From Alphaproteobacteria bacterium LSUCC0396 (GTDB lineage: Bacteria; Pseudomonadota; Alphaproteobacteria; Puniceispirillales; Puniceispirillaceae), in assembly GCA_041228345.1 (NCBI GenBank), contig CP166131.1, positions 1,178,001-1,242,000 on the forward strand: a stretch of 64,000 nucleotides of DNA, written 5' to 3'. Each line of letters starts with the position of its first letter. The first letter of the stretch is position 1. A model generated the notes under the pieces. The model saw only the letters and a list, made by a program, of their open reading frames with translations. It was not told the origin of the DNA and searched no databases. Shown one piece after another: positions 2,753-19,962 of the stretch. The translations under genes and the position numbers were made by a program.

Positions 2753-2815
2753 ATTCTATCGCTTTCGGCCATGGGCTTTCTATCATCTAAGGAACAAGGT
2801 TGAATGCAGAGAAGA

Positions 2816-3931: not shown

Positions 3932-3960
3932 CAATCACGCCTCTAGAAATTTTATAACAA

Positions 3961-4308: not shown

Positions 4309-4329
4309 AATTTGCCCCTTTGGTCACAG

Positions 4330-6072
4330 TTATTCGATCGACGCCTTGTCGCGTTTTGATGTTGTTGCCAAAACAATTGGGCTGATAACGCCCTTCACTT
4401 TGACATTCACACACGCCGTCTTGCCGCTTGCAATGGCACGTTGCACCGCCGGAATAATGTCCTCGCGCCTTGTGACCAATTCACCATGCCCGCCAAGCCC
4501 CTCGAACATCGCGTGAAACGGAATATCACGAAAATCGGTTGCATAATGCGTGCCGCTGGCAAATAGCCTTTCCTGTTGCTGCGAAATACAGTCGAGCCCG
4601 CCATTATTATCAATCACGACAACAATGGGTCGATTTTCTTGAAAGGCTGCCTCAATCGACAACCCCCCCGACAGAAAGGCGCCATCTCCACTGATCAGCA
4701 CAACATTGCGGCTGGGATCAACATTTTTTGCCGATACTGCAAATGATACGCCAACCCCCAAAAGGCTAAAGGTGCCCGGGTGCAAAATTCCGCCAAGTTT
4801 TTTACCCTGAAATCCGGCAATATTCACCGCAATTTCGGACCAGAAATGGGTGTTGCCACCATCGATCACCAGCCAGTCGCCGTCACTCATCGCGCCCTGC
4901 ACATCAAGTGCTAATTGCAAGGGATGAATCTGACCCTCAAATCCTGGCTGCGCAGTTTCACAATCAAGATCGGCAAGCATCTTATCGACCCATGCGGCAC
5001 GCCATTTACGGTTTAAATCATACCAATCTCGGGGAAGGCAGAAATCGGGACTCTTCTGATGCGCAGCTAGGGTTTCGAGAAACGCTGCTGGATCACATAA
5101 CAATGCAAAATCAGCTGCGCGGTTAAATTCTATTTCTTCATGCGATCCATTGACACATATCAGTTCAGCACTTGATGGAAATAATGGCGGATTGCCAAAA
5201 TTCATCTGATTATCAAGCCGGCCACCAACCATCAGCACCAGATCAGCGTCACGAAACGCATCTGCGGAAGGATGATATTGATGGATATCGGCAAGCCCCA
5301 TATAGGCTTCGCATTCTTCGCCAAGCAGTTTTTGATGATAGGGGATGTTAAACACTGGGATGCCAAGCAGACGGCCAGCTTCCTCAAGTTTTGCCTCGGC
5401 CTTGCTCCACCAAACACCATGTCCGCCAATCAGAACTGGCCTTTTGGCGGCATTGAGCTTTTGCAGCAGTTTCTGAAGGCGTGCTGGCTCTGGCCATGCG
5501 CGCACTGGCTGTTGCATGCTCAGATCAAATGGCCGCTCATCACGGCCAGCATCTTCGGCAAAATGGGAAAACATAATATCAACAGGAAGACTTAGGTGAA
5601 CCGCCCCAGGATAGCCGTTTGTGGCAATCTTGACGGCTCTGTCAACAAATTCATTAATGCGCTCGCCATCCGTTATGGTAGCGCTATATTTTGTCAGCGG
5701 AGCGGCGATGGCAACATCGTCAATTTCTTTGAATCCCCCCGCACCTTGACGTTTCAGGGTGCTGGATCCAGTGACAAAAATCACCGGCGAGCGTTCGCCC
5801 CAAGCCTCCATCATTGCTGGTACAGCATTCGCAAAACCCTCTGGCCCAACAAGACAAACTGCGGGTTTGCGCGTGATGCGCGTATGACCATCAGCAAAAT
5901 GTCCGGCCACCTGTTCATGCGGGCAGTTGATCACCTTCATCTGGCATTCCATAAAACCTTCAAGCGCAGGATTGCAAAAACCACCTGACAGGGTGAACAC
6001 ATGTTCAACGCCCTTTTCCTGCAAGGCGCGCGCGAGCAATGCTCCGCCTCGTATCTTTTTGGGTGACGTCAT
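4330..6072 (-). CDS. Thiamine-diphosphate-dependent enzyme (acetolactate synthase/2-oxoacid decarboxylase family)
   Basis: 580 aa with the three-domain ThDP-enzyme layout. An N-terminal Pyr domain carries the cofactor-activating Glu53 (PHEQVAGHFADG). A central nucleotide-fold domain covers about 195-340. The C-terminal PP domain has the ThDP/Mg motif GDG (462-464) and NN (489-490). The Glu excludes glyoxylate carboligase, which lacks it. The start overlaps the stop of the FMN hydroxyacid oxidase by 4 bases (ATGA). Oxidase followed by ThDP enzyme mirrors the mandelate-pathway logic (2-hydroxyacid to 2-oxoacid to aldehyde), so a 2-oxoacid decarboxylase or lyase is my best inference. True acetolactate synthase is unlikely because no ilvN lies beside it. 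Confidence 0.82.
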   Translation of the reverse strand: MTSPKKIRGGALLARALQEKGVEHVFTLSGGFCNPALEGFMECQMKVINCPHEQVAGHFADGHTRITRKPAVCLVGPEGFANAVPAMMEAWGERSPVIFVTGSSTLKRQGAGGFKEIDDVAIAAPLTKYSATITDGERINEFVDRAVKIATNGYPGAVHLSLPVDIMFSHFAEDAGRDERPFDLSMQQPVRAWPEPARLQKLLQKLNAAKRPVLIGGHGVWWSKAEAKLEEAGRLLGIPVFNIPYHQKLLGEECEAYMGLADIHQYHPSADAFRDADLVLMVGGRLDNQMNFGNPPLFPSSAELICVNGSHEEIEFNRAADFALLCDPAAFLETLAAHQKSPDFCLPRDWYDLNRKWRAAWVDKMLADLDCETAQPGFEGQIHPLQLALDVQGAMSDGDWLVIDGGNTHFWSEIAVNIAGFQGKKLGGILHPGTFSLLGVGVSFAVSAKNVDPSRNVVLISGDGAFLSGGLSIEAAFQENRPIVVVIDNNGGLDCISQQQERLFASGTHYATDFRDIPFHAMFEGLGGHGELVTRREDIIPAVQRAIASGKTACVNVKVKGVISPIVLATTSKRDKASIE

Positions 6073-7247
6073 TCGGCAGCCCTTTCCAGCATCGTTCGCA
6101 ACATTAATGTTTCATAATTTCCAGCTAAATTCGCAGCGCCCAGTTCGGCAATATTTCGGCAGCCAAGCAACCCCATTACCGCGCTTGCTTCGGCCTCAAT
6201 CAAATCCAGAATTTGCTCAAGGCCAGCCGCACCGCCTGCTCCAAGGCCATACATAACACTGCGACCAAGCATAACAAAATCTGACCCAGCAGCTAGCGCC
6301 TTAATTACATGTTCACCATTGCGGATACCACCATCAAAAATCAATGGAAAACCGCCACCAACCGCATTACGGATTTCGACAAGCGAGTCAATTGCCACTG
6401 GCGCGGCATTAAGCTGGCGGCCGCCATGATTTGACACATAAATAGCATCAGCCCCGATTGTCTTTATGCGTAACGCATCCTCAACCGACTGCACTCCTTT
6501 GACCACTAGCTTGCCCGGCCAGCGGTCGCGCAAAGCGGCAAGAAATTTCCAGTCGGCACCGGCGCGGCTGGCATTCCGCACAAAGGCTGTCTTCTGGCTT
6601 GATGTGGCATAGTTCATCGGCTGCGGCATTTGATGCCGGATCGCGTGAAGCGCGGTTTCAAGCGACCATCGGGGATGGCTGACAAAATCCCATATCTGTG
6701 ATGCACCCCAGCCCATTGGAAAAGAAAACCCGTTACGTTTGTCGCGTGTCCGCACTGATGGAATTGGCACATCAACAGTCAGGATCAGCACTTTATAATT
6801 GGCAGCAATGGCGCGGTCGATCAATTCATCGACAAACTCGTTTGATTGATCGGCATAAAGCTGAAACCACGCGTGACCCTCAGCCAGCTCGATTACCTGT
6901 TCAAGCGCCATCGACGATGCTGTCGATACACATAAAGGAATGTGCCGCTTTGCCGCTTCGCGAGCTAGGTTAAAATCAGCTCTTGGCCATGACAGCGCGC
7001 ACATACCCATTGGCGCAATCCCGAACGGAAGCCCTGTTTCCTGTCCAAGAATAGAAGTCGACATTGCACGTTCAGAAACATCAATCAGAACACGAGGCAT
7101 CAATCTGATATGATCAATCATCGCCGAATTGAGATCACGCAATGATTCATTCCCCGATGCGCCATCGATAAAATCAAACATCATGCGTGGCAGACGCCGT
7201 TTTGCGACTTGCCGTGCCTCAGCCACAGAAAATAGTTTTTTGCCCAA
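6069..7247 (-). CDS. FMN-dependent alpha-hydroxyacid oxidase/dehydrogenase (LldD/glycolate oxidase family)
   Basis: 392-aa TIM-barrel flavoprotein, soluble. Key blocks: LPRMMFDFIDGAS (about 19-31), PFGIAPMG (about 74-81), WFQLYADQS (about 127-135), LTVDVPIPSVRTRDKRNG (about 156-173), Lys250 before the active-site segment SNHGGRQLN with catalytic His274 and Arg277, and the phosphate-binding LIFDGGIRNG and LGRSVMYG blocks. Members oxidise lactate, glycolate or mandelate to the 2-oxoacid. The start is a TTG at 7247 with a GGGG-containing site upstream; it is needed for the conserved N-terminal helix. First gene of the operon and divergent from a LysR gene, so it probably supplies the ThDP enzyme's substrate. 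Confidence 0.88.
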   Translation of the reverse strand: MGKKLFSVAEARQVAKRRLPRMMFDFIDGASGNESLRDLNSAMIDHIRLMPRVLIDVSERAMSTSILGQETGLPFGIAPMGMCALSWPRADFNLAREAAKRHIPLCVSTASSMALEQVIELAEGHAWFQLYADQSNEFVDELIDRAIAANYKVLILTVDVPIPSVRTRDKRNGFSFPMGWGASQIWDFVSHPRWSLETALHAIRHQMPQPMNYATSSQKTAFVRNASRAGADWKFLAALRDRWPGKLVVKGVQSVEDALRIKTIGADAIYVSNHGGRQLNAAPVAIDSLVEIRNAVGGGFPLIFDGGIRNGEHVIKALAAGSDFVMLGRSVMYGLGAGGAAGLEQILDLIEAEASAVMGLLGCRNIAELGAANLAGNYETLMLRTMLERAAE

Positions 7248-7291
7248 TGTCTACCCCAGTCGACGCTATTCCCAAACGCTATCAGTTGGCT

Positions 7292-7314
7292 TAATTATTA
7301 GGCAAATATAATTA
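7292..7314. promoter_or_regulatory. Candidate LysR operator between divergent genes
   Basis: A perfect 7-bp inverted repeat, TAATTAT at 7292-7298 and ATAATTA at 7308-7314, separated by 9 bases. It contains the T-N11-A core typical of LysR-type sites. It lies in the 115-bp gap between the FMN oxidase operon and the LysR gene, where such a regulator would control both. Binding is inferred. Confidence 0.55.
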
Positions 7315-7362
7315 TTGGATGAATTGATAGAAAAAAGGTATGATTAAACAGAGGGGGATAAC

Positions 7363-8277
7363 ATGAATTTTCGTCAACTCAAGGCCTTTAACGCTGTAAT
7401 GCAAACTGGTTCGATTACTGGTGCAGCAAAGCAAATGCTGGTATCGCAACCAAGTGTAACGCGGCTCATTCGTGACCTTGAGTTAAATCTTGGTTTTACC
7501 CTCTTTGTTCGGCAGGGGCGCGGCATTATCGCGACTGTCGAAGCGCGGCGCTTTCATTTGGCGGTTGAGAGCACTTTCCTCAATATTGAGCGGCTTGATG
7601 ATCTGGCAGCCTCAATTCGTAAAAAGGCGGTTGGCAGGATTTCAATCGGTGTCATTCCAACATTTTCCACATCGCTTTTACCAAAGGTCCTTGGACAGAT
7701 GCGCCGGCAGGATGATGCAACCCACTCGATCATATACACGCATAATACACCAGCCATTGTCGACGCTATCAGGTTGCAACAATTTGACCTTGGCATAGTC
7801 TCTCGCTCGCCGCCTTACGTCGGTGTGGATATCCTTTACCAGACTATGGTGAATTATGTCACCCTAATCCCTGAGGATCATGTTCTGGCAAATTCAGACG
7901 GCCCAATTGACTTAAGGGACGTTGCCGGACATGTAGAATTCGTAACATTTGGCAGTGTCTACCCACTTGAAATGCAAGGCATGGACGCCAGCCTTGCCGA
8001 AAAATTCCAAAGTAATGCCCGCTATAGTGTCGCCAATGTTCTGGCTGGTGCTGCGCTGGTTCGAGAGGCTGGTGTTCCCGCTATTGTTGATCCGTTTTCG
8101 GCGCGCATGTCCGTTGCGTCAGGCGGTGTTGTGATCCGGCCAATTGTACAGAACATGAAATACCACATTGCCATCATAACCCGCGGTATAGATATGATGA
8201 CGCAAGAAACCAGACAATTAGCTGACACTATCATCACGGCTTTTAAAACAGATCCGATTATCGCATCTGTGCCTTAA
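7363..8277 (+). CDS. LysR family transcriptional regulator
   Basis: 304 aa. The N-terminal winged helix-turn-helix has the blocks MNFRQLKAFNAVM, GSITGAAKQMLVSQPSVTRL and LELNLGFTLFVRQGRG. A periplasmic-binding-type effector domain covers about 90-295 (GRISIGVIPTF, FDLGIVSR). The helix-turn-helix resembles opine-type (OccR/NocR) regulators. The ATG at 7363 follows GAGGGGG. It diverges from the hydroxyacid/DmdA operon, with a good LysR box between, so that operon is the likely target. Its stop overlaps the stop of the convergent MttB-like gene by 4 bases. Confidence 0.9.
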   Translation: MNFRQLKAFNAVMQTGSITGAAKQMLVSQPSVTRLIRDLELNLGFTLFVRQGRGIIATVEARRFHLAVESTFLNIERLDDLAASIRKKAVGRISIGVIPTFSTSLLPKVLGQMRRQDDATHSIIYTHNTPAIVDAIRLQQFDLGIVSRSPPYVGVDILYQTMVNYVTLIPEDHVLANSDGPIDLRDVAGHVEFVTFGSVYPLEMQGMDASLAEKFQSNARYSVANVLAGAALVREAGVPAIVDPFSARMSVASGGVVIRPIVQNMKYHIAIITRGIDMMTQETRQLADTIITAFKTDPIIASVP

Positions 8278-9827
8278 CCCTGATAATTTTGCGGCATCAA
8301 AATTGGAAGTGACTCGCGCAACAACATCTCACTTTCTGCGTCAATATAATTTGGGTGATGACAGCTAAGAATAGCGGTAACGCGCTGCTCTGCACGATCG
8401 CGAATATCAGAACTGCCAGCCCTCTCCCATCCCTCTATGGCGAGGCGGTCAGCAGTTTTAGGATAAAGAAAATCCGAGTGCATCCGTGCATAGGTGTCCG
8501 GTTCACCAAGAAAATGACCAACGCCAAGCGCTACCCGATCAATTGACTCCAAACCAATCGTTTCGGACGATACGGTAACAGTGCCGCTAGCACGTAGAAT
8601 GCTTCCCAGCATATCATCGTCGATAACCAGTGCAGCAAGCGATAAACCCATCAGACCAGCCTGCGCACCACAAGCTTGCGTGATTATGTTGGCCCCTGCT
8701 TGAACAGTCTGCAAGACATTCAAACATTTTTCATAGCTGCTTTGCGCATCAGGAATTTTACTGTCAGTAGCACCTGCGATCGTTGATGATGGAAGCCGGT
8801 AATAGCGCGCCATCTGAATTACGGCAGCGGTCAACAATGCCTGCTCACCGCTGCCCCCCGCCATACCGCCAGTCCGTAGGTCAGTAATCATCGGGCGCGG
8901 GCCAAAAACCGCAAGCGCATCCGGATCAATTAACCAGGCAATCACCATACCCGCAAGAGTTTCAGCAACCGTTTGTGTTACACAACCAGCAATTGTAACC
9001 GGACTAGAAGCGCCAAGCTGGCCAAAGCAATTGACCATCACCGGAATGCCGGAGCGCACTGCTTCAACCATCACGTCAAGCGCCATCGAATCAAACCTCA
9101 ACGGGGGTACAACATGGTTAACATTCAGCGACAGAAAGGGCTTAGTGCGAAATGCTGCCTCGGATCCGGCAATCTGATAACAAATGTTTGCGATATCCTT
9201 GACTGTCGCGGGTGATGATGCGCTGGTAAAAACATGCTTTGCCGTGCCAGCAAGACAGGCAAACGCAGTATTTACATCAAGATGACGCGCATCCGGCATA
9301 TCGCGCGCAACAACCGGCCGGCTTAAGAAATGGACATGATCAAGCTTGTCGACAAGCCGTGCTGCGTTATAAAGGTCCACAAGATTAGATTCACGATATC
9401 TGTTCAGCGCCGCATCAAAGATCATGGGGGAGGCGCCGCCAGTGCCAACATGAACCACCCCTGGGGATAAAGCCATGTCATTATCACCAGCGCGACCATA
9501 CAGCGTGATATCTCGCCGCAAACCGGCAAGCGCAGACATCACCAACTCTTCTGGAAATAATAACCGGCCACGCGAGTCAAGTGAACCGCCAGCGGCCAAT
9601 ACAAGGTCGACAGCAGTTGACGACGGGTCACAAAGACCGGTATTTGCGAGCACTGTCAGGGCAGCGTCATGGATCGCAGTCAAATCAATTTCTTGTAACG
9701 GACCATAGCCCCGCCCAAAGCCAACAATGCGCTTTCCGTCAAGACCTTCAGCAGAGATATTCCGAGTGTTTTGTTCACGCCTACCGCGCCCCATTCTTGA
9801 TCGATCCGACCCTTCACCCCGCCTCAT
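8274..9827 (-). CDS. Trimethylamine methyltransferase family protein (MttB-like, non-pyrrolysine)
   Basis: 517 aa, typical length of the MttB superfamily. The frame is continuous, with no in-frame amber codon, so it belongs to the non-pyrrolysine group whose characterised members demethylate quaternary amines such as glycine betaine or proline betaine with a corrinoid protein. Visible family blocks: HVGTGGASPMIFDAA (about 126-140), KPFLSLNVNHVVPPL, GIPVMVNCFGQLGASSPVT (about 254-272), GGMAGGSGEQALLTAA and QACGAQAGLMGLSLA. No corrinoid protein or MtbA-type gene lies in the window. Its ATG overlaps the S51 peptidase stop (ATGA), so the two are translationally coupled. Confidence 0.85.
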   Translation of the reverse strand: MRRGEGSDRSRMGRGRREQNTRNISAEGLDGKRIVGFGRGYGPLQEIDLTAIHDAALTVLANTGLCDPSSTAVDLVLAAGGSLDSRGRLLFPEELVMSALAGLRRDITLYGRAGDNDMALSPGVVHVGTGGASPMIFDAALNRYRESNLVDLYNAARLVDKLDHVHFLSRPVVARDMPDARHLDVNTAFACLAGTAKHVFTSASSPATVKDIANICYQIAGSEAAFRTKPFLSLNVNHVVPPLRFDSMALDVMVEAVRSGIPVMVNCFGQLGASSPVTIAGCVTQTVAETLAGMVIAWLIDPDALAVFGPRPMITDLRTGGMAGGSGEQALLTAAVIQMARYYRLPSSTIAGATDSKIPDAQSSYEKCLNVLQTVQAGANIITQACGAQAGLMGLSLAALVIDDDMLGSILRASGTVTVSSETIGLESIDRVALGVGHFLGEPDTYARMHSDFLYPKTADRLAIEGWERAGSSDIRDRAEQRVTAILSCHHPNYIDAESEMLLRESLPILMPQNYQG

Positions 9828-10579
9828 AAGCTTGTGTCTCCTTTTGATCCCACTCCAAGCCGTTGACCGCGCTTGAGCGGCTGATGGGCATTCATGTCAC
9901 CATCTGGTGCTATTAGATAAGCTGACCCGCTGCTACGGGCGCGGACAATCTCGGCAACCACACCATTGATAATATGCACGCCAACACCATCATCAATGGC
10001 GATCCCTGATTGTAATTGGCGACTGGCAATAGCCGCTTCAAAGGCCTGTTTTCGGGCTGGCTCACTGCTGAAATGCGGGCAGGCGCTTCCTGCAATAAGC
10101 CCAAGCCCCTCACGCTGTTCAAACTGGGGCTCAAAACAATCATCCTCGGTTTTCAATAGTAAATCGGAAAACCAGCAAATCGCCCCGGCGCTAACCCCGG
10201 ATGCTACAAGCCCCCGGCTTATCGCTGCCACCAATAAATCAGCAATGCCTGATTTGTGCCAATGTGACAGCATTGCTGTTGTTGTTCCCCCACCAACATA
10301 AAGAATATCCAAATCTTGTAAAAAATCCTGCGCCATCGTCGCATCTGCCGTTACCGGCAAATGCGTTGTTCGCGCACAGCTTGCAAATCGCGCATAAAAA
10401 GCGGTTAGGCGATCCGCCTGATCATTATTGGCGTGCCCGATATAACCAATTTTCAATTTGGTAGCAGGCCCAACCAATGCTAGCAGACGATCCTCAAGCA
10501 GCGAATCACGGCCACCCCCTTCTTGCGAATGGGTAAAGCCTCCACCGCCAACAGCAAATATCTGAACTAGCTCACGCAT
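9824..10579 (-). CDS. Peptidase S51 family protein (dipeptidase E / cyanophycinase-like)
   Basis: 251-aa cytoplasmic class-I-glutaminase-like fold hydrolase. The nucleophile elbow ASGVSAGAICW places Ser130. The preceding ILYVGGGTTTAML block (about 92-104) and IAIDDGVGVHI (near residue 195) are family features. S51 enzymes cleave N-terminal Asp dipeptides or related isopeptide bonds. The ATG at 10579 follows AGGGA. It is first in a two-gene unit with the MttB-like gene. The link of an S51 hydrolase with an MttB-like protein suggests hydrolysis of a conjugate before or after demethylation, which is inference only. Confidence 0.82.
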   Translation of the reverse strand: MRELVQIFAVGGGGFTHSQEGGGRDSLLEDRLLALVGPATKLKIGYIGHANNDQADRLTAFYARFASCARTTHLPVTADATMAQDFLQDLDILYVGGGTTTAMLSHWHKSGIADLLVAAISRGLVASGVSAGAICWFSDLLLKTEDDCFEPQFEQREGLGLIAGSACPHFSSEPARKQAFEAAIASRQLQSGIAIDDGVGVHIINGVVAEIVRARSSGSAYLIAPDGDMNAHQPLKRGQRLGVGSKGDTSL

Positions 10580-10676: not shown

Positions 10677-10912
10677 ATTAGTCTGAGCAGTTTTGTCTCA
10701 ATAGGCAATTCGAATTAAAAAATAAAACCTATACGATATGCACATGTGTTCATTTGCAAATTATATTTGTTATCAATTTTCGATAATCCCATAGTTAAAT
10801 TGTAACAATTGGGTAAAACAAGAGTCTGTCGGTTCACTGATTTACTACATAGTAAAATGTAAACCACTGATTCATATCGATTATAAAGGCACTGCATCAA
10901 GAGGGGGAACAA
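10677..10912 (+). repeat. Duplicated leader, copy A (upstream of TRAP operon)
   Basis: About 236 bases immediately before dctP, clearly homologous over its length to 14276-14514. Conserved stretches include TTAGTCTGAGCAG, AATAAAACCTATACG, AAATTATATTTGTTATCAAT, TAATCCCATAGTT and AGAGTCTGTCGGT, then two related CACTGATT-type repeats and a purine-rich ribosome-binding site. It contains dyads TTATC-N7-GATAA (near 10770-10786) and TTTACTA-CA-TAGTAAA (near 10841-10856). No open frame. Interpreted as promoter plus operator/5' UTR shared by two transport operons. Confidence 0.8.
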
Positions 10913-11941
10913 ATGAGAAGACTTCTTTCGGCGACCTTGCGTAGCGTCACCAAACCGGTAGTATTGGGCGTTGCACTGACAATATCGCTCACTTCATTTC
11001 AGGTCTTTGCTGACCAGATTGTCGCGCGCATGTCTGGACATTGGAGCCCAACCCATCAAAGCTCGATCCATTCACAGATGTTTGCCGATGAGGTGACAAA
11101 AAGGTCCGGTGGGCGGCTAAAGATCGAATATTACCCGTCCAAACAGCTTTTCGGCATCAGAGAGGTTCTTGGCGCCATCACCTCTGGCGCTGTTGAACTT
11201 GGCGGCGTTGTCGGCGTTGTCAGCTTTCCTCCGATTAACAAGAATTTCAATGTTGCCTCCTACCCCGGTCTGTTTGCCTCCTATGAACAGCAGCGTGGAT
11301 TTTTCCTGAATTCAGACAAGGGCCAGGAAATCTGGGGGGATATCACCAAAAAAAGCAATTCGCAGCTAGTCATGTATAACCCTGTTGGTCCGGTGATGAC
11401 TTTCAGCAGTGCCCGTGAATTGACCAGCATTGACGTGATGAATGGGCTGAAAGCGCGCCGCCTTTTGAAAAGTGAGCTTCCGATGTGGAAGGCGCTTGGT
11501 GCCAACGCTGTTTCACTGCCAACTGGTGAGGTCTACACTGCGCTTCAGACCGGTATGATCGACACTATCAATAGCCCTCCAGGATCAATTGAAGCCTATA
11601 GCTGGTGGGAATTTCTGGCCTATGGGCAAAAGCCCTATCAGTATTTTGCCGATGCTTACATTATGGCCAACCGCGATTGGATGAGCAGCCTGCCTGATGA
11701 TTTGCGGGAGTTGGTTTTGACTGTTGGCGCTGAAGTTGGCCAGATTGCAACTGATAGTATTCTGGGCGCGGGTGAAGATACCTTGAAGAAATTTATCGAA
11801 CGTGGCGGCGTTGTTACCGAACTCAGCGGCGCCGAGAAAGCAAAATTCAATAAATTGATGCAGGATGAAGTGATGCCGGCAATGGCAGACATGTTCGATG
11901 AGGATACGCTGGTCAAGGCCCAGCAATATGTTGCTAACTAG
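10913..11941 (+). CDS. dctP: TRAP transporter substrate-binding protein (DctP family)
   Basis: 342 aa with a signal peptide (about 1-33: basic start, hydrophobic core, VFA cleavage context), so periplasmic. Mature DctP fold: ARMSGHWSPTHQSS start, then the family signature region GLKARRLLKSELPMWKALGAN (about 180-200), whose Arg usually salt-bridges the ligand carboxylate, followed by SLPTGEVYTALQTGMIDTI. It binds an organic anion and feeds the DctQM proteins encoded directly downstream. Preceded by leader copy A and a GAGGGGG site at 10901-10907. Ligand not predictable. Confidence 0.92.
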   Translation: MRRLLSATLRSVTKPVVLGVALTISLTSFQVFADQIVARMSGHWSPTHQSSIHSQMFADEVTKRSGGRLKIEYYPSKQLFGIREVLGAITSGAVELGGVVGVVSFPPINKNFNVASYPGLFASYEQQRGFFLNSDKGQEIWGDITKKSNSQLVMYNPVGPVMTFSSARELTSIDVMNGLKARRLLKSELPMWKALGANAVSLPTGEVYTALQTGMIDTINSPPGSIEAYSWWEFLAYGQKPYQYFADAYIMANRDWMSSLPDDLRELVLTVGAEVGQIATDSILGAGEDTLKKFIERGGVVTELSGAEKAKFNKLMQDEVMPAMADMFDEDTLVKAQQYVAN

Positions 11942-11977
11942 CTTTCATCCCGCACTCAAAGCAACGAGGCAGGCGCT

Positions 11978-12535
11978 GTGTTGAGCGCTGCGCTTGCATC
12001 TTTGTCCAAGTTGAATGAATGGCTTGAGAAAGCGATTTATCTGCTGGCGATTTTTATTGTCGCCAACATGGTGCTTGCGCTGTTCTTGAGCGCGCTCATA
12101 AGATACGTCTCCGGCACTGGCTATGATTGGTTCATCGAACTGCCACCAATTCTCACTAGCTGGCTTGTCTTCCCGCTTCTGGGGCCGTTGTTGAAATCCG
12201 GAGCCCATATAAAGGTGGATATCCTGAATAATCTTCTAGCCCCAAGGCAGTTATCGGTCCTCAGACTGATTATCGCGGTGATTGCCCTGCTGTCATCCAT
12301 CGTCTTTTTTGTCGCTGGGATTGAGGCCACAAGCCTATATTTCAGGCTGGGACAGGTCATGGAGCTGGAAATCGAAATCCCGGTCTGGTGGGTGTATCTG
12401 GCCTTTCCTTGCGGCTTTGGGTTAATGATCTTATTCGCACTAGAGCTAGTTCTGGCTGAACTCGTTGCGCTGGGTGCTTCAACACCCAATGATCCGGCCC
12501 AGACTAACCCGACGAACAGCCCTGAGAAGATTTAA
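11978..12535 (+). CDS. dctQ: TRAP transporter small permease (DctQ family)
   Basis: 185 aa inner-membrane protein with four hydrophobic helices (about 18-40, 52-72, 90-112, 130-152) and the family NMVLALFLSALIRYV and FPLLGPLLKSGAHIKVDIL segments. It starts at GTG 11978, preceded by a GAGGCAGG purine site. Its stop lies 3 bases before dctM. It forms the membrane complex with DctM; the C-terminal 20 residues are polar and Pro/Asn-rich. Confidence 0.88.
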   Translation: MLSAALASLSKLNEWLEKAIYLLAIFIVANMVLALFLSALIRYVSGTGYDWFIELPPILTSWLVFPLLGPLLKSGAHIKVDILNNLLAPRQLSVLRLIIAVIALLSSIVFFVAGIEATSLYFRLGQVMELEIEIPVWWVYLAFPCGFGLMILFALELVLAELVALGASTPNDPAQTNPTNSPEKI

Positions 12536-12538
12536 CCC

Positions 12539-13810
12539 ATGTACGCGCTTGCAATCTTCTCTTCAATCCTACTGTTGCTTATGTCGGTACCGATCTTTTT
12601 GGTATTCGGTATCGGCAGCTCGGCCGCCGCCATTCTCGGTCTTGGTCTGCCCTGGTCAACCTTGATTCAGGTCTCCTTTGGCGCGATGACAAAGCACATT
12701 CTAGTTGCCGTACCTTTGTTTATTTTCGCCGGAATGGTGATGCTCCGCGGCGGCGCTGCTAAACGCCTAGTTGATTTTGCGACAGCACTTGTCGGTCATT
12801 GGCCGGGCGGTCTTGGTATTGCCATGGTTATCGCTATGGGGTTTTTTGCCGCTTTCTGTGGCTCCATTCTGGCCGCCATCACAGCTGTCGGCACGATCAT
12901 GATGCCAAAGATGCTCGAACAGGGGTATCCCAGACCCTTTGTCATTGTTCTGGCAGCCTCAGCCGCGCTCCTCGAAGCTTTGATTCCACCCTCAAATGCC
13001 GCGATATTGTTCAGCGCCCTCACCAATGTTCCGGTCTCACAAACCTTTGCTGCTGGAGTAATCCCAGGGCTGATCCTTCTCGCCTTCATGGTCATTGTTG
13101 TCCTAATCAAATGCCGCAACATCCGCAACCCAGAGCCAGCTTCAGCGGCAGAACGCTGGCGTAGCTTTCTTGGCGCGCTGCCCGGATTATTTACCCCGAT
13201 CATCATTCTTGGCGGCATTTATGCTGGCCTACTCACCCCGTCTGAGTCAGCAGCAGTTGCTGGCGTTTGGGCGATCGTAATGGGGTTTGTGATATACCGA
13301 GAGCTAACCGTCGCATCGCTGTGCCTAGCGCTCAAAGAAACGGCGACAATCACAGCGATCATTTTTGCTATCATAGCGACCGCTACCTTCCTTAGCGTAA
13401 TCCTGACCTATAGCCAGATCCCACAACAGATCGTCAGTTATTTTACTGATATAGGCGTGACGTTTGCCCTGTTCTGGGTGGCACTGGCGATCATTTGCCT
13501 TTTGCTCGGAACCTTTGTCGAAATTGTTCCGGTTTTCTATCTCACTGTGCCGATCTTTGCTGCAATCACCCTGTCCTTTAACCAGAGCCTACTGCATCTA
13601 TATGTGGTGTTCGTTGCCTTTGCCGGGATCGGGATGATCACCCCACCAGTCTGTGTCGGCATTTACACAAGCGCCAGTGTCATTCAAGAAAACCCGGCGA
13701 AGGCCTTCCGCGAGGTACCACTTTTTGTTGGCGTTGGCATTCTTTATGGTATTTTGATGATTATGGTTCCCGAAGCCTCCACTTGGCTCCCGTCTTTAGT
13801 AACCAGATAA
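12539..13810 (+). CDS. dctM: TRAP transporter large permease (DctM family)
   Basis: 423 aa, about 11-12 hydrophobic helices. DctM/IT-superfamily features: VPLFIFAGMVMLRGGAAKRLVDFA (scaffold loop, about 57-80), FFAAFCGSILAAITAVGTIMMPKM (about 101-124), ALIPPSNAAILF, and the C-terminal GIGMITPPVCVGIYTSAS segment. It carries the sodium-coupled transport path. Three bases after dctQ and last gene of the operon. Confidence 0.92.
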   Translation: MYALAIFSSILLLLMSVPIFLVFGIGSSAAAILGLGLPWSTLIQVSFGAMTKHILVAVPLFIFAGMVMLRGGAAKRLVDFATALVGHWPGGLGIAMVIAMGFFAAFCGSILAAITAVGTIMMPKMLEQGYPRPFVIVLAASAALLEALIPPSNAAILFSALTNVPVSQTFAAGVIPGLILLAFMVIVVLIKCRNIRNPEPASAAERWRSFLGALPGLFTPIIILGGIYAGLLTPSESAAVAGVWAIVMGFVIYRELTVASLCLALKETATITAIIFAIIATATFLSVILTYSQIPQQIVSYFTDIGVTFALFWVALAIICLLLGTFVEIVPVFYLTVPIFAAITLSFNQSLLHLYVVFVAFAGIGMITPPVCVGIYTSASVIQENPAKAFREVPLFVGVGILYGILMIMVPEASTWLPSLVTR

Positions 13811-14275
13811 AGAACTGATCAGTCTCCCTAAACAGTTGGTTCGCCAGATAGAGTATAACCATGAAGCGTTAGCCGTTCATAAAATCTATGGACGGCTTCA
13901 TCATCATCACAACAGCGAACAACAGCCATCCCGTGGGCCACTCTTTTGAGTACCGCTATTTAACAAAGGTATGGCGTGCGGGGGGCAAGATGTTGCAGCC
14001 ATTGAATTTTCCCAGATGAAGAGGGTGTGGCCTATGTCTATCATATCAATATCAACACGAACTATAATAGCGACGCGGAGCAGCGCGTATGCAAATCAGC
14101 AATGGCGGCCTCGTCAAATATTTAAGTGGAGGCCTGCAACGGCTGGGTTGCCACCTACTGGCTTACAAAACGTGCCTGTTGACTTGCAAATAGTGTCACT
14201 TAAACTTTTGGACATGCTTGGATAACGTTGTTGTTTGGCGCCTAAAGGGGAAAACATAACGCTGTCCAGTGCAAC
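13811..14275. other. Long intergenic region with possible gene relic
   Basis: 465 bases with no intact gene. At 13872-13896 a 10-bp hairpin (one G-T wobble, 5-nt loop) could end the TRAP transcript, though no T-run follows. At about 14011-14106 one frame reads a clean protein-like stretch (PDEEGVAYVYHININTNYNS...), with a neighbouring frame reading a similarly clean upstream part (...VWRAGGKMLQPLNF). This suggests a frameshifted remnant of a gene I cannot identify. Confidence 0.4.
13872..13896 (+). terminator. Hairpin downstream of dctM
   Basis: Stem 13872-13881 with 13887-13896, ten pairs including one G-T wobble, loop AAATC. It lies about 60 bases after the dctM stop. It lacks a T-tract, so termination is uncertain; it may act as a 3'-end stabiliser. 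Confidence 0.4.
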
Positions 14276-14514
14276 ATTAGTCTGAGCAGTGTTGCCTCAA
14301 TAGGCAATCCAAATAAAAAAATAAAACCTATACGCTTTACAAATGTATTTATTCCCAAATTATATTTGTTATCAATTCTTGGTAATCCCATAGTTGGGGG
14401 TCATTAATTGAGTAAAGTGAGAGTCTGTCGGTCGACCGATTTTCTGCATAGTCAAATGCAAGTCACCGATTCATGTGGGTTATGAGGGGACTGCATAACG
14501 AGGAGGAATTAACA
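14276..14514 (+). repeat. Duplicated leader, copy B (upstream of peptide-type ABC operon)
   Basis: Second copy of the leader at 10677-10912, same orientation, colinear almost to the start codon and of clearly similar sequence. A perfect palindrome CGGTCGACCG lies near 14431-14440, where copy A has a decayed CGGTTCACTG. The dyad TTATC-N7-GGTAA replaces TTATC-N7-GATAA. It ends with the GAGGAGG ribosome-binding site at about 14500-14506. Because only the non-coding region is shared and the downstream genes are unrelated, a regulatory role (common operator or RNA leader) is inferred. Confidence 0.8.
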
Positions 14515-15993
14515 GTGAAAAAATACCTTATTGCAGCAACACTGATCGTTTTCGCTAGCGCCGGAGCGACTGCCGCGCCAAGTGGCACTTTCAAACAGGC
14601 CCATGAATACGGATTTGGTGACAAATCCAGCCTCGATCCGGCTTCACGCGGCCGTGTCATGCAGATTACAGAAAAGCTAATGAGTCGCCTCATTCGGCCA
14701 GACATGAAGGGATCACCAAGCCCAGACCTTGCGGTTTCATGGTCAGCAAATTCTCAAGCCACCGAATGGACATTAAAATTGCGTGACGGCGTTAAATTCC
14801 ACGATGGCAGCGCGTTCGACTCTGGCGACGTAATCTACACATTTAACCGTGTACTGAACCCAGAAAATAAATCGCCAGCACGATCCGCCATCAAGATGAT
14901 CGAAAAAATGGAAGCGCCGGACAAATCAACCGTTACCTTTAAGCTGTCAACACCATTTGCCGACCTACCACTTCAGCTGATGGATTATCGCCTGCGAATC
15001 ATCCCCGAGGGATCGGGCAACAGCATCGCATCATCAGGCATTGGCACTGGTCCATTCAAGCTGGTGAAATTTGATGCTGCTGGCACTACAAAACTCGAAG
15101 CCAATATGGATTATTGGGAAGGTGCCCCAGGCGTTTCGAAAATGGAAATCATCGGGATTGGTGACGGTCAAGCGCGCTTGCAAGCTTTGCTTGGCGGTCA
15201 GATCCACTTTGAGGACAAGGTGACCAACCAGCAAAAGCCCATGTTCGCCAACAACAGCAAATTCAAAATGATGGAAGTGCCAACTGGCAACTGGCGCGGT
15301 CTGGTTTTCCGCACTGATGTTGCGCCTTTTACCGATGTGCGGGTTCGCCAAGCAGTCCGCATGGCAGCTGACCGTGGTGAACTGGTCAAACTTATCATGG
15401 GCGGAGCGGCCACCGTTGCGTGCGATACGCCTGTGAAACCTGATGATCAATATCGCGCTGATATTAAATGTCCGCAGGACATTGCCGGTGCCAAAAAACT
15501 TCTCAGCGAAGCAGGCTTTGAAAATGGTATTGACGTGGATGTCTATGTGGCAACATTGGAACCAACATGGCCAATCCTAGCCGAAGCCTACCAACAACAA
15601 GCTGCAAAAGCGGGCATACGGGTAAACATTAAACAGGTGCCATCAGATGGGTATTGGAAAGACACATGGATGCAAAAGACGGTTTCTGCAACGCGTTGGA
15701 ATGAGCGCCCCGCTGACTCGGCATTACATGAAATCTACCTTTCAACAGCGAAATGGAACGAGTCCTATTATAGGGATGCTGATTTTGATGCCCTTTTGGC
15801 TGAAGCGCGGCGCGAGTTAAACTTTGACAAACGCAAGGCGCTTTATGTACAGGCACAAAAGCACCTTTACTCAACTGCTGGTACATTAATCCCCTATCAC
15901 GTTTCAAAACTCTATGTGATGGCTGCCAATGTTAACGGTATTGACGCAGTGGAAAATCATTCAATCCGCTGGCATAAGGTAACGGTCAAATAA
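14515..15993 (+). CDS. ABC transporter substrate-binding protein, family 5 (dipeptide/oligopeptide/opine type)
   Basis: 492 aa from GTG 14515, preceded by AGGAGG. This start gives a clean signal peptide (MKKYLIAATLIVFASAGATA), whereas an upstream ATG at 14473 lies inside the conserved leader. SBP_bac_5 features: DPASRGRVMQITEKLMSRL, PDLAVSWSANSQATEWTLKLRDGVKFHDG (about 60-90), a DVIYTFNRVLNP block, and FTDVRVRQAVRMAADRGEL (about 276-294). Periplasmic receptor for the permeases encoded downstream. Ligands of this family include dipeptides, opines, nickel complexes and glutathione; none can be chosen here. Confidence 0.9.
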   Translation: MKKYLIAATLIVFASAGATAAPSGTFKQAHEYGFGDKSSLDPASRGRVMQITEKLMSRLIRPDMKGSPSPDLAVSWSANSQATEWTLKLRDGVKFHDGSAFDSGDVIYTFNRVLNPENKSPARSAIKMIEKMEAPDKSTVTFKLSTPFADLPLQLMDYRLRIIPEGSGNSIASSGIGTGPFKLVKFDAAGTTKLEANMDYWEGAPGVSKMEIIGIGDGQARLQALLGGQIHFEDKVTNQQKPMFANNSKFKMMEVPTGNWRGLVFRTDVAPFTDVRVRQAVRMAADRGELVKLIMGGAATVACDTPVKPDDQYRADIKCPQDIAGAKKLLSEAGFENGIDVDVYVATLEPTWPILAEAYQQQAAKAGIRVNIKQVPSDGYWKDTWMQKTVSATRWNERPADSALHEIYLSTAKWNESYYRDADFDALLAEARRELNFDKRKALYVQAQKHLYSTAGTLIPYHVSKLYVMAANVNGIDAVENHSIRWHKVTVK

Positions 15994-16020
15994 GTAGGCC
16001 TATTCATCTAACCTAGATAC

Positions 16021-16065
16021 AAGCCAGCCAAATCATAAAGCATAAGCTGCGAGGCTGGCTTTTAT
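16021..16065 (+). terminator. Attenuator/terminator hairpin between SBP and permease genes
   Basis: Perfect 9-bp stem, AAGCCAGCC at 16021-16029 and GGCTGGCTT at 16053-16061, followed by TTTAT. It lies 27 bases after the receptor stop and 40 bases before the permease start. This position is typical for keeping receptor transcripts in excess over permeases. Confidence 0.6.
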
Positions 16066-16104
16066 CTATGCCGACCACATAACTGAATGAGCAAGGAGTA
16101 GATT

Positions 16105-17067
16105 GTGCTTTTCATGCTGATAAGAAGAGTATTACTTGGCGGCGTGACAGTGTGCATTGTGTCCTTAATCATTTTTTCTGGCGTAGAGATGCTGCCAGGA
16201 GACGCCTGTACGCAATTTCTAGGTGAATATCAGGCTGACGACGAGCTTCTAGCCCAATGCCGCAAGGATCTTGATCTAAACCGGCCAGCCATTGACCGCT
16301 TTGCTGAATGGACGCAAGGCGCTGTTAGCGGCGATCTTGGCCTAGCTGCCGATGGCAAAACTAAAATAAGCACAATTGTTGGGGACCGGCTGAAAAACTC
16401 TTTACTTCTGGCGTTCTGCGCCATGAGTTTAGGTATTCCGCTCGCTCTGCTGCTGGGTGTTATCAGTGGGCTGTGGCGTGACCGTCTGCCAGATATCATC
16501 GCGTCAACGCTGGCTATTTTTGCCATGACAATCCCTGAATTTGTTTCGGCAACCCTGCTCATTCTTGTGCTTAGCATCTGGCTTGGCTGGCTACCTGGCA
16601 TTGTCCTGACCTCAGCCGCAGCACCAGCAAGCGAATTCTTTCCTGAGATATTGCTTCCTGTGATCGTTTTATCCTTTGTGATGTGCGCTCATATAATGCG
16701 CATGGTTCGCTCATCGGTTATCGATGTAATGGCCAGCGACTATATTCAAATGGCAACTTTGAAAGGCGTCCCATATTGGCAAATGGTATTTCGGCACGCC
16801 CTTCCAAACGCATTATTGCCGGCGATTAATGTAGTGGCATTGACCATCGCTTGGCTGCTAGGTGGTGTCGTCGTGATTGAAGTTGTGTTCAACTACCCAG
16901 GCCTTGGACGGCTGATGATTGACTCAATTTCTGACCGGAACCTTCCGGTGGTGCAATCCATCGCGCTGATTGTTGCTAGTATCTATGTATGCGTCAATCT
17001 TGCAGCAGACCTGTTGACAATGATTGCCAATCCAAAACTCCGCACGATGTATATGAGGAAACAATGA
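16105..17067 (+). CDS. ABC transporter permease (DppB family)
   Basis: 320 aa with six hydrophobic segments (about 8-28, 98-122, 134-156, 178-200, 246-268, 286-308). The EAA-type cytoplasmic loop is DYIQMATLKGVPYWQMVFRH (about 212-231). Typical DppB N terminus (one TM helix then a periplasmic loop) and C terminus (VFNYPGLGRLMIDSI). The GTG at 16105 has AAGGAG at 16094-16099. Its stop overlaps the next permease start (ATGA). Confidence 0.9.
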   Translation: MLFMLIRRVLLGGVTVCIVSLIIFSGVEMLPGDACTQFLGEYQADDELLAQCRKDLDLNRPAIDRFAEWTQGAVSGDLGLAADGKTKISTIVGDRLKNSLLLAFCAMSLGIPLALLLGVISGLWRDRLPDIIASTLAIFAMTIPEFVSATLLILVLSIWLGWLPGIVLTSAAAPASEFFPEILLPVIVLSFVMCAHIMRMVRSSVIDVMASDYIQMATLKGVPYWQMVFRHALPNALLPAINVVALTIAWLLGGVVVIEVVFNYPGLGRLMIDSISDRNLPVVQSIALIVASIYVCVNLAADLLTMIANPKLRTMYMRKQ

Positions 17068-17948
17068 CCCTATCCTCTGCCAGCTACCAGCAAGAAAAAG
17101 GTCGATTCGTTCCGGTCATGAAGGATATTTTGGCAAGGCCTTCAGGGCGCATTGGCCTGACATTAGTATTTCTTCATATCCTGTTGGCACTGCTAAGCCC
17201 CTCAATAGCACCATATGACTACAAATTGCAGAACTCTGCACTCATGCTGAGCCCTCCATCTACTGAACATTGGCTTGGAGCTGATCATTTGGGGCGTGAT
17301 ATCCTTTCACGCACTCTAATGGGTGGCCGCGAGGCCTTGCTTGTTACGGGGATTGCAACACCGCTTGCTGTGATGTGGGGAGGATTTATCGGCATATTAT
17401 TCGGTTTGGTTGGCGGCCGTGTCGACGAAGTACTAATGCGTGTTGTCGATGCATTCTTATCGTTGCCATGGATTCTCAAAATGCTGGTCTTGATTGTAAC
17501 CTTTGGCACCGGCATTGGCGTGCTAATCCCAACCTTGACGTTTTTTTACGGTATACCAGTGATACGCGTTGCCCGCGCCGCGACTCATGACATCATTGCC
17601 CGTGATTTTGTTTGGGCAGCCAAGGCCCGTGGCCACAGCAGGATTAGCATAATCTGGCGTGAACTTTTGCCCAATGTCCTTGACACATTGATGGTTGAAG
17701 GCGCCATGCGCTGGTCATGGATGTTATTGGCTTTTTCATCGCTTTCCTTTCTTGGATTCGGCGTTTCACCGCCAACGCCTGACTGGGGGTTGATGATATC
17801 AGATGCGCGCGGCTTTATGTCTTTCGCCCCATGGGGCGTCATTGCGCCAGTCATTGGCCTGTCAACCCTAATCATTGGTATTAATTTGTCTGCAGATGCG
17901 CTGGCTAAAGCGCTTGGAATTGACCGCGCACAAAAGGCACCAATGTAA
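17064..17948 (+). CDS. ABC transporter permease (DppC family)
   Basis: 294 aa from ATG 17064, which overlaps the previous stop; longer in-frame starts would lie inside the upstream gene. Family marks: N-terminal TM helix, then the HWLGADHLGRDILSRTLMGGR block (about 69-89) and the EAA loop DFVWAAKARGHSRISIIWRE (about 184-203). The late SFLGFGVSPPTPDWGLMISD motif is also present. Inner-membrane partner of the DppB-type permease. Confidence 0.9.
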   Translation: MTLSSASYQQEKGRFVPVMKDILARPSGRIGLTLVFLHILLALLSPSIAPYDYKLQNSALMLSPPSTEHWLGADHLGRDILSRTLMGGREALLVTGIATPLAVMWGGFIGILFGLVGGRVDEVLMRVVDAFLSLPWILKMLVLIVTFGTGIGVLIPTLTFFYGIPVIRVARAATHDIIARDFVWAAKARGHSRISIIWRELLPNVLDTLMVEGAMRWSWMLLAFSSLSFLGFGVSPPTPDWGLMISDARGFMSFAPWGVIAPVIGLSTLIIGINLSADALAKALGIDRAQKAPM

Positions 17949-17949
17949 A

Positions 17950-19962
17950 ATGCCACAGCCAGCCTTCATTGAAATAAAGAATCTCTCAGTTGGGTATTCG
18001 AGCCGAAGTGGCAAATCTATTCTGGTGCTGCGTGATGTCAATCTTAGCATTACCAGAGGTGATAGCATTGGGCTTGTTGGGGAAAGCGGTTCTGGGAAAA
18101 GCACCTTGGCGCTCGCCGCAATGGGGTATTTCAAACGCGGGCTTCACGTGATTTCCGGACAAATTCATTTTGACGGGATCGACATGCTGAATATCAAGCG
18201 CAATGCTCTGCAACGCCTTCGTGGCGGGCGACTTGCACTAATTCCGCAAAACTCAGGCCAGTCCTTAACACCGAATTTGCGCATTGGTCAGCAAATCACT
18301 GAGGCCTTGCGCCTGCATAGTAATATTCCCGCAACCGACTTTCACGCTGGCGTGATTGATCTTTTGAGTCAGGTTCGCCTTCCGGATCCAGTTGGGCTTA
18401 CCGATCGCTATCCGCATGAATTATCCGGGGGCCAACAACAACGGGTGGCTATTGCAATGGCACTTGCCAGCAACCCCGAAGCGTTGCTTCTTGACGAGCC
18501 GACCACTGGCCTTGATGTCACCACGCAAGCCCATATCATGGAGTTGCTTCGTGATTTGGCAAAGGACAGAAATCTGGCGATGCTGTATGTCAGCCATGAT
18601 CTTGGCGCAATTGCACGCGTATGTAACAAAGTCATGGTGTTGTATGCTGGTGAAACCGTTTTGACAGGTAGTGCAAATCAGGTACTTTTGTCACCACGTC
18701 ACCCTTATGCACATGGTCTGCTGGCATCTATACCACGGCTAAATGAAGCCAGCCTGCCGCAGGCACTGGACGGACGGCCACCAATGCCAAGCGAAACCAT
18801 TACGGGTTGCGCTTTTGCCGATCGTTGCAAGTTGGCTGATCAAACCTGCCGGTCGTCACCGCCACCACTGGATCATCTTGAAAGTGGTGAAACCGTTCGC
18901 TGTTTTCATCATTATCAGATCGGCCAGCTCAATCGAAAGCCTCAAAAATCGGCAAAGTCAAATCCCATTGCCGCGTGCAAGAATAGCGCTCTTTCACTTT
19001 CCAATCTGTCGGTAAGTTACAGCCAGCCCGGACTTTTGTCAAAGCTGTTCCGATCGCAAGATATCCCGCCAAGCACCGTTGAAAGGATCACGATTGACAT
19101 AAAAAAGGGAGAAACATTGGGGCTGGTTGGAGAGAGCGGTAGTGGCAAATCAACCATCTTAAAAACCATTGCCGGAATGGTGCCAGCTCAATCAGGGAAC
19201 ATCATTTTGAATCAGACCGAACCATTGGACACGATGGTCGAAAAACGGCCTGCAGCCTATCTCCGTCAAGTGCAAATCATCTTCCAAAATCCTGATGATA
19301 GCCTTAATCCACGTCATACAGTTGCCCAGATTCTGGCGCAGCCACTTCGTCTTTATTATGGGCTTTCCGGCACGCCTCTTCGCGATCGTAGCATCGCCAT
19401 CCTCGAACAGGTTCGACTAGGGGAACATTACCTTGAACGCCTTCCAAGTCAGCTTTCGGGCGGAGAAAAGCAACGTGTTGCAATCGCCCGCGCTTTTGCT
19501 GCAGAACCAGAAATCATTCTTTGTGATGAAGTGACATCAGCACTTGATGTTTCAGTTCAGGCAGCAGTGCTTGATCTTCTTGATGCGTTAAAACGGCAAG
19601 ATGGAACAACCTATATTTTCGTGTCACATGATCTTGCCGTGGTGAAAGCTATTTCAGATCGGGTGGTCGTTTTATATCAAGGTCGCATTTGTGAAATTGG
19701 CCCAGTCGCCGCGGTTTATTCGGCGCCTTTCCACCCCTATACCGATGCCCTTATTGGTGCTGTATTGGAACCTGATCCCGACGTTGCGCCACGCCTGACT
19801 GCTGATGATGTGGTTGAATTATCACCACCGAAAACGGGTTGCCCATTCCAGCGGCGATGCCCACGAAAGCTTGGTAGCATCTGCGAGACCAACATACCCC
19901 CTGCACAGAAAGTTGCGCCAGGGCATATCATCCATTGCCATATTCCGCAGGGTGATCTTTAG
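17950..19962 (+). CDS. Dual ATP-binding ABC protein (DppD-DppF type fusion)
   Basis: 670 aa from ATG 17950. Two complete nucleotide-binding domains are fused. Domain 1 (about 5-270): Walker A GESGSGKST, signature LSGGQQQR, Walker B LLLDEPTT, and the Cys-rich oligopeptide-transporter C-terminal motif GCAFADRC. Domain 2 (about 350-660): Walker A GESGSGKST, signature LSGGEKQR, Walker B ILCDEVTS, and a second Cys motif GCPFQRRC. It energises the dipeptide-type permease pair just upstream and replaces the usual separate DppD and DppF. One base separates it from the DppC-type gene. Confidence 0.92.
   Translation: MPQPAFIEIKNLSVGYSSRSGKSILVLRDVNLSITRGDSIGLVGESGSGKSTLALAAMGYFKRGLHVISGQIHFDGIDMLNIKRNALQRLRGGRLALIPQNSGQSLTPNLRIGQQITEALRLHSNIPATDFHAGVIDLLSQVRLPDPVGLTDRYPHELSGGQQQRVAIAMALASNPEALLLDEPTTGLDVTTQAHIMELLRDLAKDRNLAMLYVSHDLGAIARVCNKVMVLYAGETVLTGSANQVLLSPRHPYAHGLLASIPRLNEASLPQALDGRPPMPSETITGCAFADRCKLADQTCRSSPPPLDHLESGETVRCFHHYQIGQLNRKPQKSAKSNPIAACKNSALSLSNLSVSYSQPGLLSKLFRSQDIPPSTVERITIDIKKGETLGLVGESGSGKSTILKTIAGMVPAQSGNIILNQTEPLDTMVEKRPAAYLRQVQIIFQNPDDSLNPRHTVAQILAQPLRLYYGLSGTPLRDRSIAILEQVRLGEHYLERLPSQLSGGEKQRVAIARAFAAEPEIILCDEVTSALDVSVQAAVLDLLDALKRQDGTTYIFVSHDLAVVKAISDRVVVLYQGRICEIGPVAAVYSAPFHPYTDALIGAVLEPDPDVAPRLTADDVVELSPPKTGCPFQRRCPRKLGSICETNIPPAQKVAPGHIIHCHIPQGDL

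Follow-up and report, generated by a model that had tools for sequence, protein, structure and literature searches.

The window analysed here is a stretch of 64,000 nucleotides of contig CP166131.1 (assembly GCA_041228345.1, positions 1,178,001 to 1,242,000 of the forward strand) from Alphaproteobacteria bacterium LSUCC0396 of the Puniceispirillaceae, a member of the marine SAR116 bacteria, in which a leader of about 240 bp stands twice, once before an operon for a tripartite ATP-independent periplasmic (TRAP) transporter and once before an operon for an ATP-binding cassette (ABC) transporter. The repeated 240 bp are very probably a promoter region under the control of a LysR-type regulator, the gene of which lies at 7363-8277, together with the 5' untranslated region (UTR) that follows it. 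LysR-type promoters have an anchor site near -65 and a second site towards -35, and the regulator gene lies close by and is autoregulated from the divergent gap. In the mechanism that we propose, the LysR protein would anchor at a predicted site at about -65, here termed box 2, and would reach the stretch proximal to the -35 element, activating or repressing transcription depending on its effector. Because the LysR protein would bind both leaders as well as a third site in its own divergent gap, three transcription units, namely the TRAP operon, the ABC operon and a divergent cluster running from an FMN-dehydrogenase (FMN_dh) gene to a DmdA-like gene and beyond, may answer one signal. The leaders, the regulator gene and the third site are as follows.

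10677..10912, + strand: leader copy a (promoter module plus 5' UTR), before the TRAP operon; 79% ungapped identity to copy b
14276..14514, + strand: leader copy b (promoter module plus 5' UTR), before the ABC operon; the ancestral position relative to the receptor gene sbp5
7363..8277, + strand: LysR-family regulator (PF00126 and PF03466), proposed from co-occurrence to act at the three sites
7303..7341, - strand: a third, similar site, in the gap that separates lysR from the FMN-dehydrogenase gene and oriented to the latter; recognized by a short pattern and by the site model R1
7276..7305, - strand: predicted promoter of the FMN-dehydrogenase cluster, with -35 TTGCCT (7305-7300), 18 bp and -10 TAGCGT (7281-7276)

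The preliminary description of this DNA had stated that the two leader copies align end to end, and they do so without a gap, at 79.4% identity over 233 bases, with the three exact blocks that it quoted found in both copies. The left edge of the similarity is abrupt, while the right edge coincides with the Shine-Dalgarno sequence and start codon (ATG at 10913; GTG at 14516, upstream of which the start given in the list of open reading frames, 14473, is an in-frame ATG). The receptors encoded downstream belong to the unrelated families DctP (PF03480) and SBP_bac_5 (PF00496), as the same description had it, and its proposal that a purely regulatory module had been copied, placing two different uptake systems under apparently one signal, fits the sequences well. 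A comparison of genomes G000 and G011 gives 87.8% identity for the operator part of copy a and 89.8% for that of copy b, against 78.4 and 80.3% in the respective UTRs, 75.3% in the spacer beside copy b and 71.0% at the third positions of dctM; copy b is therefore not drifting neutrally, and these differences indicate that both leader copies are under constraint, mainly in the promoter part. When copies a and b of G000 are compared with each other, they are 85.7% identical in the operator part and 70.7% in the UTR. Where the preliminary description had left a choice between selection and recent copying, selection on the operator part is supported, whereas very recent copying is not, given that the arrangement is common to seven sampled genomes.

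The search of related genomes for further copies that had been proposed earlier led to 26 conserved sites in all across seven genera, so that what is found in relatives is a conserved element and not a single unconserved copy. Across these genera, the conserved part of the leader is the promoter half only. The 22 sites from 16 genomes of family f1 form a gap-free alignment over 98 columns, in which box 1 is followed at 30 bp by box 2, at a further 36 bp by TTGTTA and then, after 17 bp, by CATANT; the promoter-half spacing is also kept in four held-out sites of family f4. Both leaders thus have a predicted sigma70-like promoter, and the positions of boxes relative to the start (about -65 and about -95) were placed from the -10 hexamer. 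The elements of the two copies are listed below.

10701..10715, + strand: box 1 of copy a, ATAGGCAATTCGAAT (T-N11-A), centre at about -95; ungapped conservation, putative role
14300..14314, + strand: box 1 of copy b, ATAGGCAATCCAAAT; conservation, putative role
10731..10745, + strand: box 2 of copy a, ATACGATATGCACAT, LysR-type box by the consensus given in an excerpt of PMC6628147, centre at about -65; predicted binding
14330..14344, + strand: box 2 of copy b, ATACGCTTTACAAAT; predicted binding
10752..10766, + strand: box 3 of copy a, a T-N11-A that ends at the -35 element and includes the conserved AAATTATAT; AT-rich, putative role
14351..14365, + strand: box 3 of copy b; AT-rich, putative role
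10767..10772, + strand: -35 TTGTTA of copy a; invariant in the 22 aligned sites
10790..10795, + strand: -10 CATAGT of copy a, after a 17-bp spacer; CATANT in the 22 aligned sites
14366..14371, + strand: -35 TTGTTA of copy b
14389..14394, + strand: -10 CATAGT of copy b
10802..10912, + strand: predicted 5' UTR of copy a, with Shine-Dalgarno sequence; start placed from the -10 element
14401..14515, + strand: predicted 5' UTR of copy b; start placed likewise

An excerpt of PMC6628147 gives the LysR-type consensus as T-N11-A / ATAC-N7-GTAT and describes, at PbenA and PcatB, a site that matches it and two that deviate slightly. At box 2, T-N11-A is found in all 26 sites, and so is AT-N11-AT, while eight of the 26 (G025, G028, G029, G030, G124, G128, G129 and G130) read exactly ATAC-N7-GTAT; these eight span five genera, none of which is that of the window. 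The right arm of the dyad is ACAT or AAAT in the eight-genome clade to which the window belongs; other lineages, among them the congeneric G002 and G003, have GTAT there. The earlier statement that dyads are kept in both copies consequently holds for the T-N11-A spacing, and less so for the main dyad, whose right arm is weaker here than elsewhere. When 4+4 dyad symmetry was scored on 14 chosen representatives of the 26 sites, box 2 ranked at the top of 84 positions with 2.93 of 4 (background over the 84 positions: mean 1.26, standard deviation 0.61). In box 3, all 26 sites keep the T-N11-A spacing and 25 the full AT-N11-AT (G030 differs), a match that AT-rich composition makes easy. Box 1 is perhaps shared with the divergent genes for an S51 peptidase and an MttB-like protein.

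The third site is recognized by the strict 39-bp pattern AT-N11-AT-N13-AATTWTATTTG, which has three exact matches in the 2.59-Mb home genome, at 7303-7341 (-), 10731-10769 (+) and 14330-14368 (+), and by this pattern no further regulon members are found elsewhere in that genome. In the lysR gap, 21 of 21 genomes combine an ATA...AT box with a WATTWTATTTG core at leader-like distance if the pattern is slightly relaxed, and the strict form finds the gap site in all 17 lysR genomes of family f1. R1, a sequence model of the site built on family f1 sites alone and untrained on the lysR gap, gives weak gap matches (E 0.01-1) in 12 of the 17 f1 lysR genomes and two of the four of f4; apart from the two leaders and this gap, it gives no match below E 0.36 in the home genome (150 of 672 candidates scored). 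The strict pattern has 39 matches in 61 genomes of the family, 36 of them at this locus (17 in lysR gaps and 19 in leaders, those of G030, G053 and G054 being missed), and one match when read backwards. It is present in 17 of 17 genomes with lysR and in two of 44 others (Fisher p 3e-13), a value that overstates the association because of the kinship of the genomes, the joint inheritance of the locus and the post hoc design of the pattern; the informative part of the test is the rarity of the pattern elsewhere.

The lysR gene ends 2.4 kb upstream of leader copy a, and the site and lysR are present or absent together. An order-wide census of 136 genomes (lysR orthologs at E <= 1e-70, strong R1 sites at E <= 1e-12) found lysR in 21 genomes and a strong site in 20 of these, 16 of which had supplied training sites for R1, and in none of the 115 genomes without lysR. 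Family f4 is a fair test of R1, being absent from the training, and each of its four genomes has one strong site, just before the sbp5 ortholog. Within the 61 genomes of the family census (lysR orthologs at E <= 1e-50, sbp5 orthologs at E <= 1e-80), lysR and sbp5 are each found in 17; the site precedes sbp5 in 15 of the 15 genomes that have both genes and is not found in either of the two that have sbp5 without lysR, G010 (99% complete) and G032 (98%). Despite having no lysR (E <= 1e-50), these two retain the nearby genes for the S51 peptidase, FMN_dh, the thiamine pyrophosphate (TPP) enzyme and the DmdA-like protein. A weak R1 match (E 8e-5) lies at G068:C22:8246-8324 in a family f3 genome that is 59% complete and without an lysR ortholog. 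Weak leader matches in G031, G032, G035 and G041, the surroundings of which differ from this locus, were treated as chance.

Several observations weigh against control by this LysR protein. Its binding at the three sites is putative, the clade of the window has a decayed main dyad (right arm ACAT/AAAT), near-equal symmetry is scored elsewhere in the alignment (2.79 at position 57, with box 1 sixth at 2.21), and box 3 is AT-rich. R1 gives the lysR-gap site weak scores (E 0.01-1), and the strict pattern, which was designed after the sites had been seen, also has three matches outside the locus (in G003, G033 and G060). The lysR gene and the sites are inherited as one locus and are separated only by the two losses in G010 and G032, so the genomes are not independent tests. 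G012 (72% complete) has lysR and the gap site without a strong R1 site; because its sbp5 is not found either, the promoter may be unassembled. Finally, in many genomes R1 was applied to no more than the 30-67 best first-look candidates each, and for that reason weak sites elsewhere may be missed.

The preliminary description had offered DNA operators or a structured RNA leader, and it is the former that fits. A riboswitch or similar RNA common to both mRNAs, acting on translation or termination, would make the 5' UTR the conserved unit; evident similarity of the UTR, which is about 110 nt long, is confined to eight close genomes (G000, G001, G006, G008, G009, G011, G014 and G015). The congeneric G002 and G003 and the other genera have a readily recognized promoter part and a UTR with no evident similarity to those of the eight. 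As shown by the identities above, the UTR is also less conserved than the operator part. No Rfam family matches the leaders at gathering scores, and nine UTRs from four genera fold no better than shuffled sequences (z-scores +0.78 to -1.26). What speaks for such an RNA is pair covariation in 14 related sequences from the eight genomes, where 94.2% of the alignment cells pair and five of 22 predicted pairs have double changes, compared with 1.4 ± 1.0 in shuffles; one of 500 shuffles reaches five pairs, no shuffle reaches the covariation score, and double changes occur separately in helix 1 of G001 and of G011b. However, one slid control reaches four pairs, the structure was derived from the same alignment as the pair counts, related sequences can beat all shuffles without structure, and the consensus fold is weak (-9.93 kcal/mol, with a covariation term of -0.57). 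These eight genomes may have retained a small hairpin in the UTR; it does not explain the conservation of the leader elsewhere. With the Rfam search, the single folds, and the alignment fold and pair counts taken together, a structured RNA leader was rejected as the principal explanation, and we regard it as very unlikely.

It is also unlikely, in our judgement, that another factor binds the element as a strong or globally regulated promoter, with shared ancestry of the locus as the only link to lysR. The inheritance of the whole block together would agree with such a promoter, and the AT-rich core could suit other DNA-binding proteins; yet both genomes that have kept the transporter and peptidase genes but not lysR are without the site, a similar site stands in the lysR gap and the pattern nowhere else in the home genome, and box 2 in five other genera equals the LysR-type consensus published in PMC6628147, as given in its excerpt. 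That the repeat is a mobile or selfish element, or a leftover of duplication without regulatory role, appears extremely improbable. Two direct copies do flank the TRAP block, and the G015 assembly appears broken inside copy b, but the home genome holds exactly two copies (seven further matches are 14-22 bases long, with E >= 0.5) and not the many copies of a dispersed element, the operator part of copy b is more conserved than its surroundings, and single-copy relatives in other genera and in another family carry the module at the ABC promoter.

With a LysR-controlled promoter as the preferred reading, the history of the duplication can be followed through relatives. A leader match at E <= 0.01 is found in ten of 16 genomes of the genus (short only in G002 and G003). 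The TRAP arrangement occurs in seven sampled genomes, in six of which both copies were seen: G000, G006, G009, G011, G014 and G015, the last with copy b apparently split over two contigs; the contig of the seventh, G008, has copy a alone and ends before the expected copy b. In contrast, the S51 gene (-), one leader and sbp5 (+) follow each other with no TRAP genes between them in G001, G002, G003, G025, G028, G029 and G054, as well as in G030 and G053. In the lysR tree, G001 is sister to the seven TRAP genomes (support 99/99), the chosen outgroup not forming a clean clade. These single-leader relatives and the position of G001 show that the leader originally belonged to the ABC operon, between the S51 gene and sbp5; the TRAP operon came to stand beside the ABC operon later, preceded by a second site copy that extends as far as the Shine-Dalgarno sequence. 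The TRAP features are as follows.

10903..13808, + strand: TRAP block, from Shine-Dalgarno sequence to dctM stop, common to locus L054; the 87% identity to L054 ends here
10913..13810, + strand: TRAP operon dctP-dctQ-dctM (domain matches)

Among 80 dctP loci from named genomes, the best 80 of 171 relatives, the leader is present at five (L049-L053); one of the 75 leaderless loci, L100, extends just 22 bases beyond the match on the upstream side. The nearest leaderless locus, L054 of SAR116, has a dctP that is 91.5% identical, and its homology runs from 10903, inside the Shine-Dalgarno sequence, to the dctM stop at 13808; upstream, L054-L059 differ from the leader and have a TTGACA element. The TRAP block thus stands behind other upstream sequence in relatives and is joined here at the captured promoter. 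At the joint, the leader and the TRAP upstream sequence have GGAGGAAT in common, which makes joining at the Shine-Dalgarno sequence plausible; whether the copy arose by illegitimate joining at the shared GGAGGAAT or by integration of a leader-TRAP segment is not settled.

Some further observations concern these loci. Just downstream of the intact dctM of L054, a 47-residue DctM-like stretch (64%; L054:11685-11825) is perhaps a decayed second copy. In the 67 loci L062-L128, many of them in Pelagibacteraceae and Rhodobacteraceae records, DctP is 68-78% identical and no locus has a leader match. Copies a and b are 95.3% identical in G014, 93.6% in G015 and 79.4% in G000, and the copies of the first two (L051; L012/L044) look as if homogenised in that lineage, for which the tree is not decisive. 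Gene conversion between copies is not claimed; the tree does not reject a single a/b split (p-AU 0.299, approximately unbiased test), and 56% of the bootstrap trees show it as one side of a branch. The spacer from dctM to leader b (13811-14275, 465 bases), mostly absent in G014 and partly present in G015, has a longest open stretch of about 91 codons.

The neighbouring genes are the following.

1718..7247, - strand: divergent cluster of FMN_dh, TPP enzyme, HIUase-like, DmdA-like and Ldh_2 genes, five genes that are probably one operon (gene and domain evidence)
8274..10579, - strand: genes for an MttB-like protein and an S51 peptidase, divergent from leader a (domain matches)
14516..19962, + strand: Opp-like ABC operon (SBP_bac_5, two permeases and a fused double ATPase; domain matches, GTG start from the sequence)

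In the lysR-divergent cluster, the DmdA-like gene (2816-3934, -) matches the NCBIfam model of dimethylsulfoniopropionate (DMSP) demethylase with 559 bits (cut-off 410), a model that genes at the locus in G001, G010, G032 and G124 also pass, and the best solved relative of its product is 3tfh (371 bits), which we take to be Pelagibacter DmdA. The presence of this gene suggests a methylated sulfonium or betaine as the signal. It is possible, though doubtful, that one LysR protein governs a SAR116 regulon for DMSP demethylation, comprising the DmdA-like cluster and two unrelated importers of DMSP or related methylated compounds, the second of which would have been recruited by duplication of the regulated promoter. 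Two side observations concern the neighbouring genes: an Rfam PYLIS_3 match at 8661-8769 (-), with 39 bits against a gathering score of 38, lies inside the uninterrupted mttB-like frame and is probably a coding similarity, and in G001 a frameshift or assembly error leaves sbp5 as two overlapping frames (L145/L146, L241:7136-8903).

The locus offers a natural example of how a regulon may grow by the copying of a whole, apparently regulated promoter before a block of genes, with the state before copying (in G001 and other genera) and the state after it both preserved. In an abundant marine clade, it also links two transporters and a DMSP-demethylase-like gene to a LysR regulator, by which questions of substrate and signal become testable. 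In the titles and abstract openings of part of the open-licence PubMed Central (PMC) literature, we found no report of this leader, this LysR protein or a SAR116 LysR/dmdA regulon, and the main texts of two SAR116 papers (PMC12262181; PMC8547437) contain no word beginning with LysR or TRAP.

Compared with known systems, the leaders resemble the benA and catB promoters controlled by BenM and CatM, which, in the excerpt of PMC6628147, have a T-N11-A box with the ATAC-N7-GTAT dyad and slightly different further sites; they differ from these in that the main dyad has decayed in the window's clade, an extra box lies 30 bp further upstream and the link between regulator and targets is predicted. According to the excerpts of PMC13104084 and PMC10746254, LysR genes occur in DMSP catabolism clusters, as AcuZ in Halomonas and as the lysR of SAR92 ddd clusters, and LysR-type motifs have been noted in the promoters of DMSP genes. 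The present locus likewise has a LysR gene beside genes for transport and DMSP, while it has a demethylase-like gene (DmdA) and not DddD, and its transporters are of other families, the regulators being compared by context and not by orthology. The placing of a coding block behind a copied neighbour promoter, here joined at the Shine-Dalgarno sequence, is like promoter capture by duplication or illegitimate joining as described in the excerpt of PMC11111574, from which it differs in that the proposed step is natural and old (seven genomes) and would have brought in a complete, apparently regulated promoter. LysR-type promoters and promoter capture are both known kinds, and the locus is a clear example of a known event and not a new kind of element.

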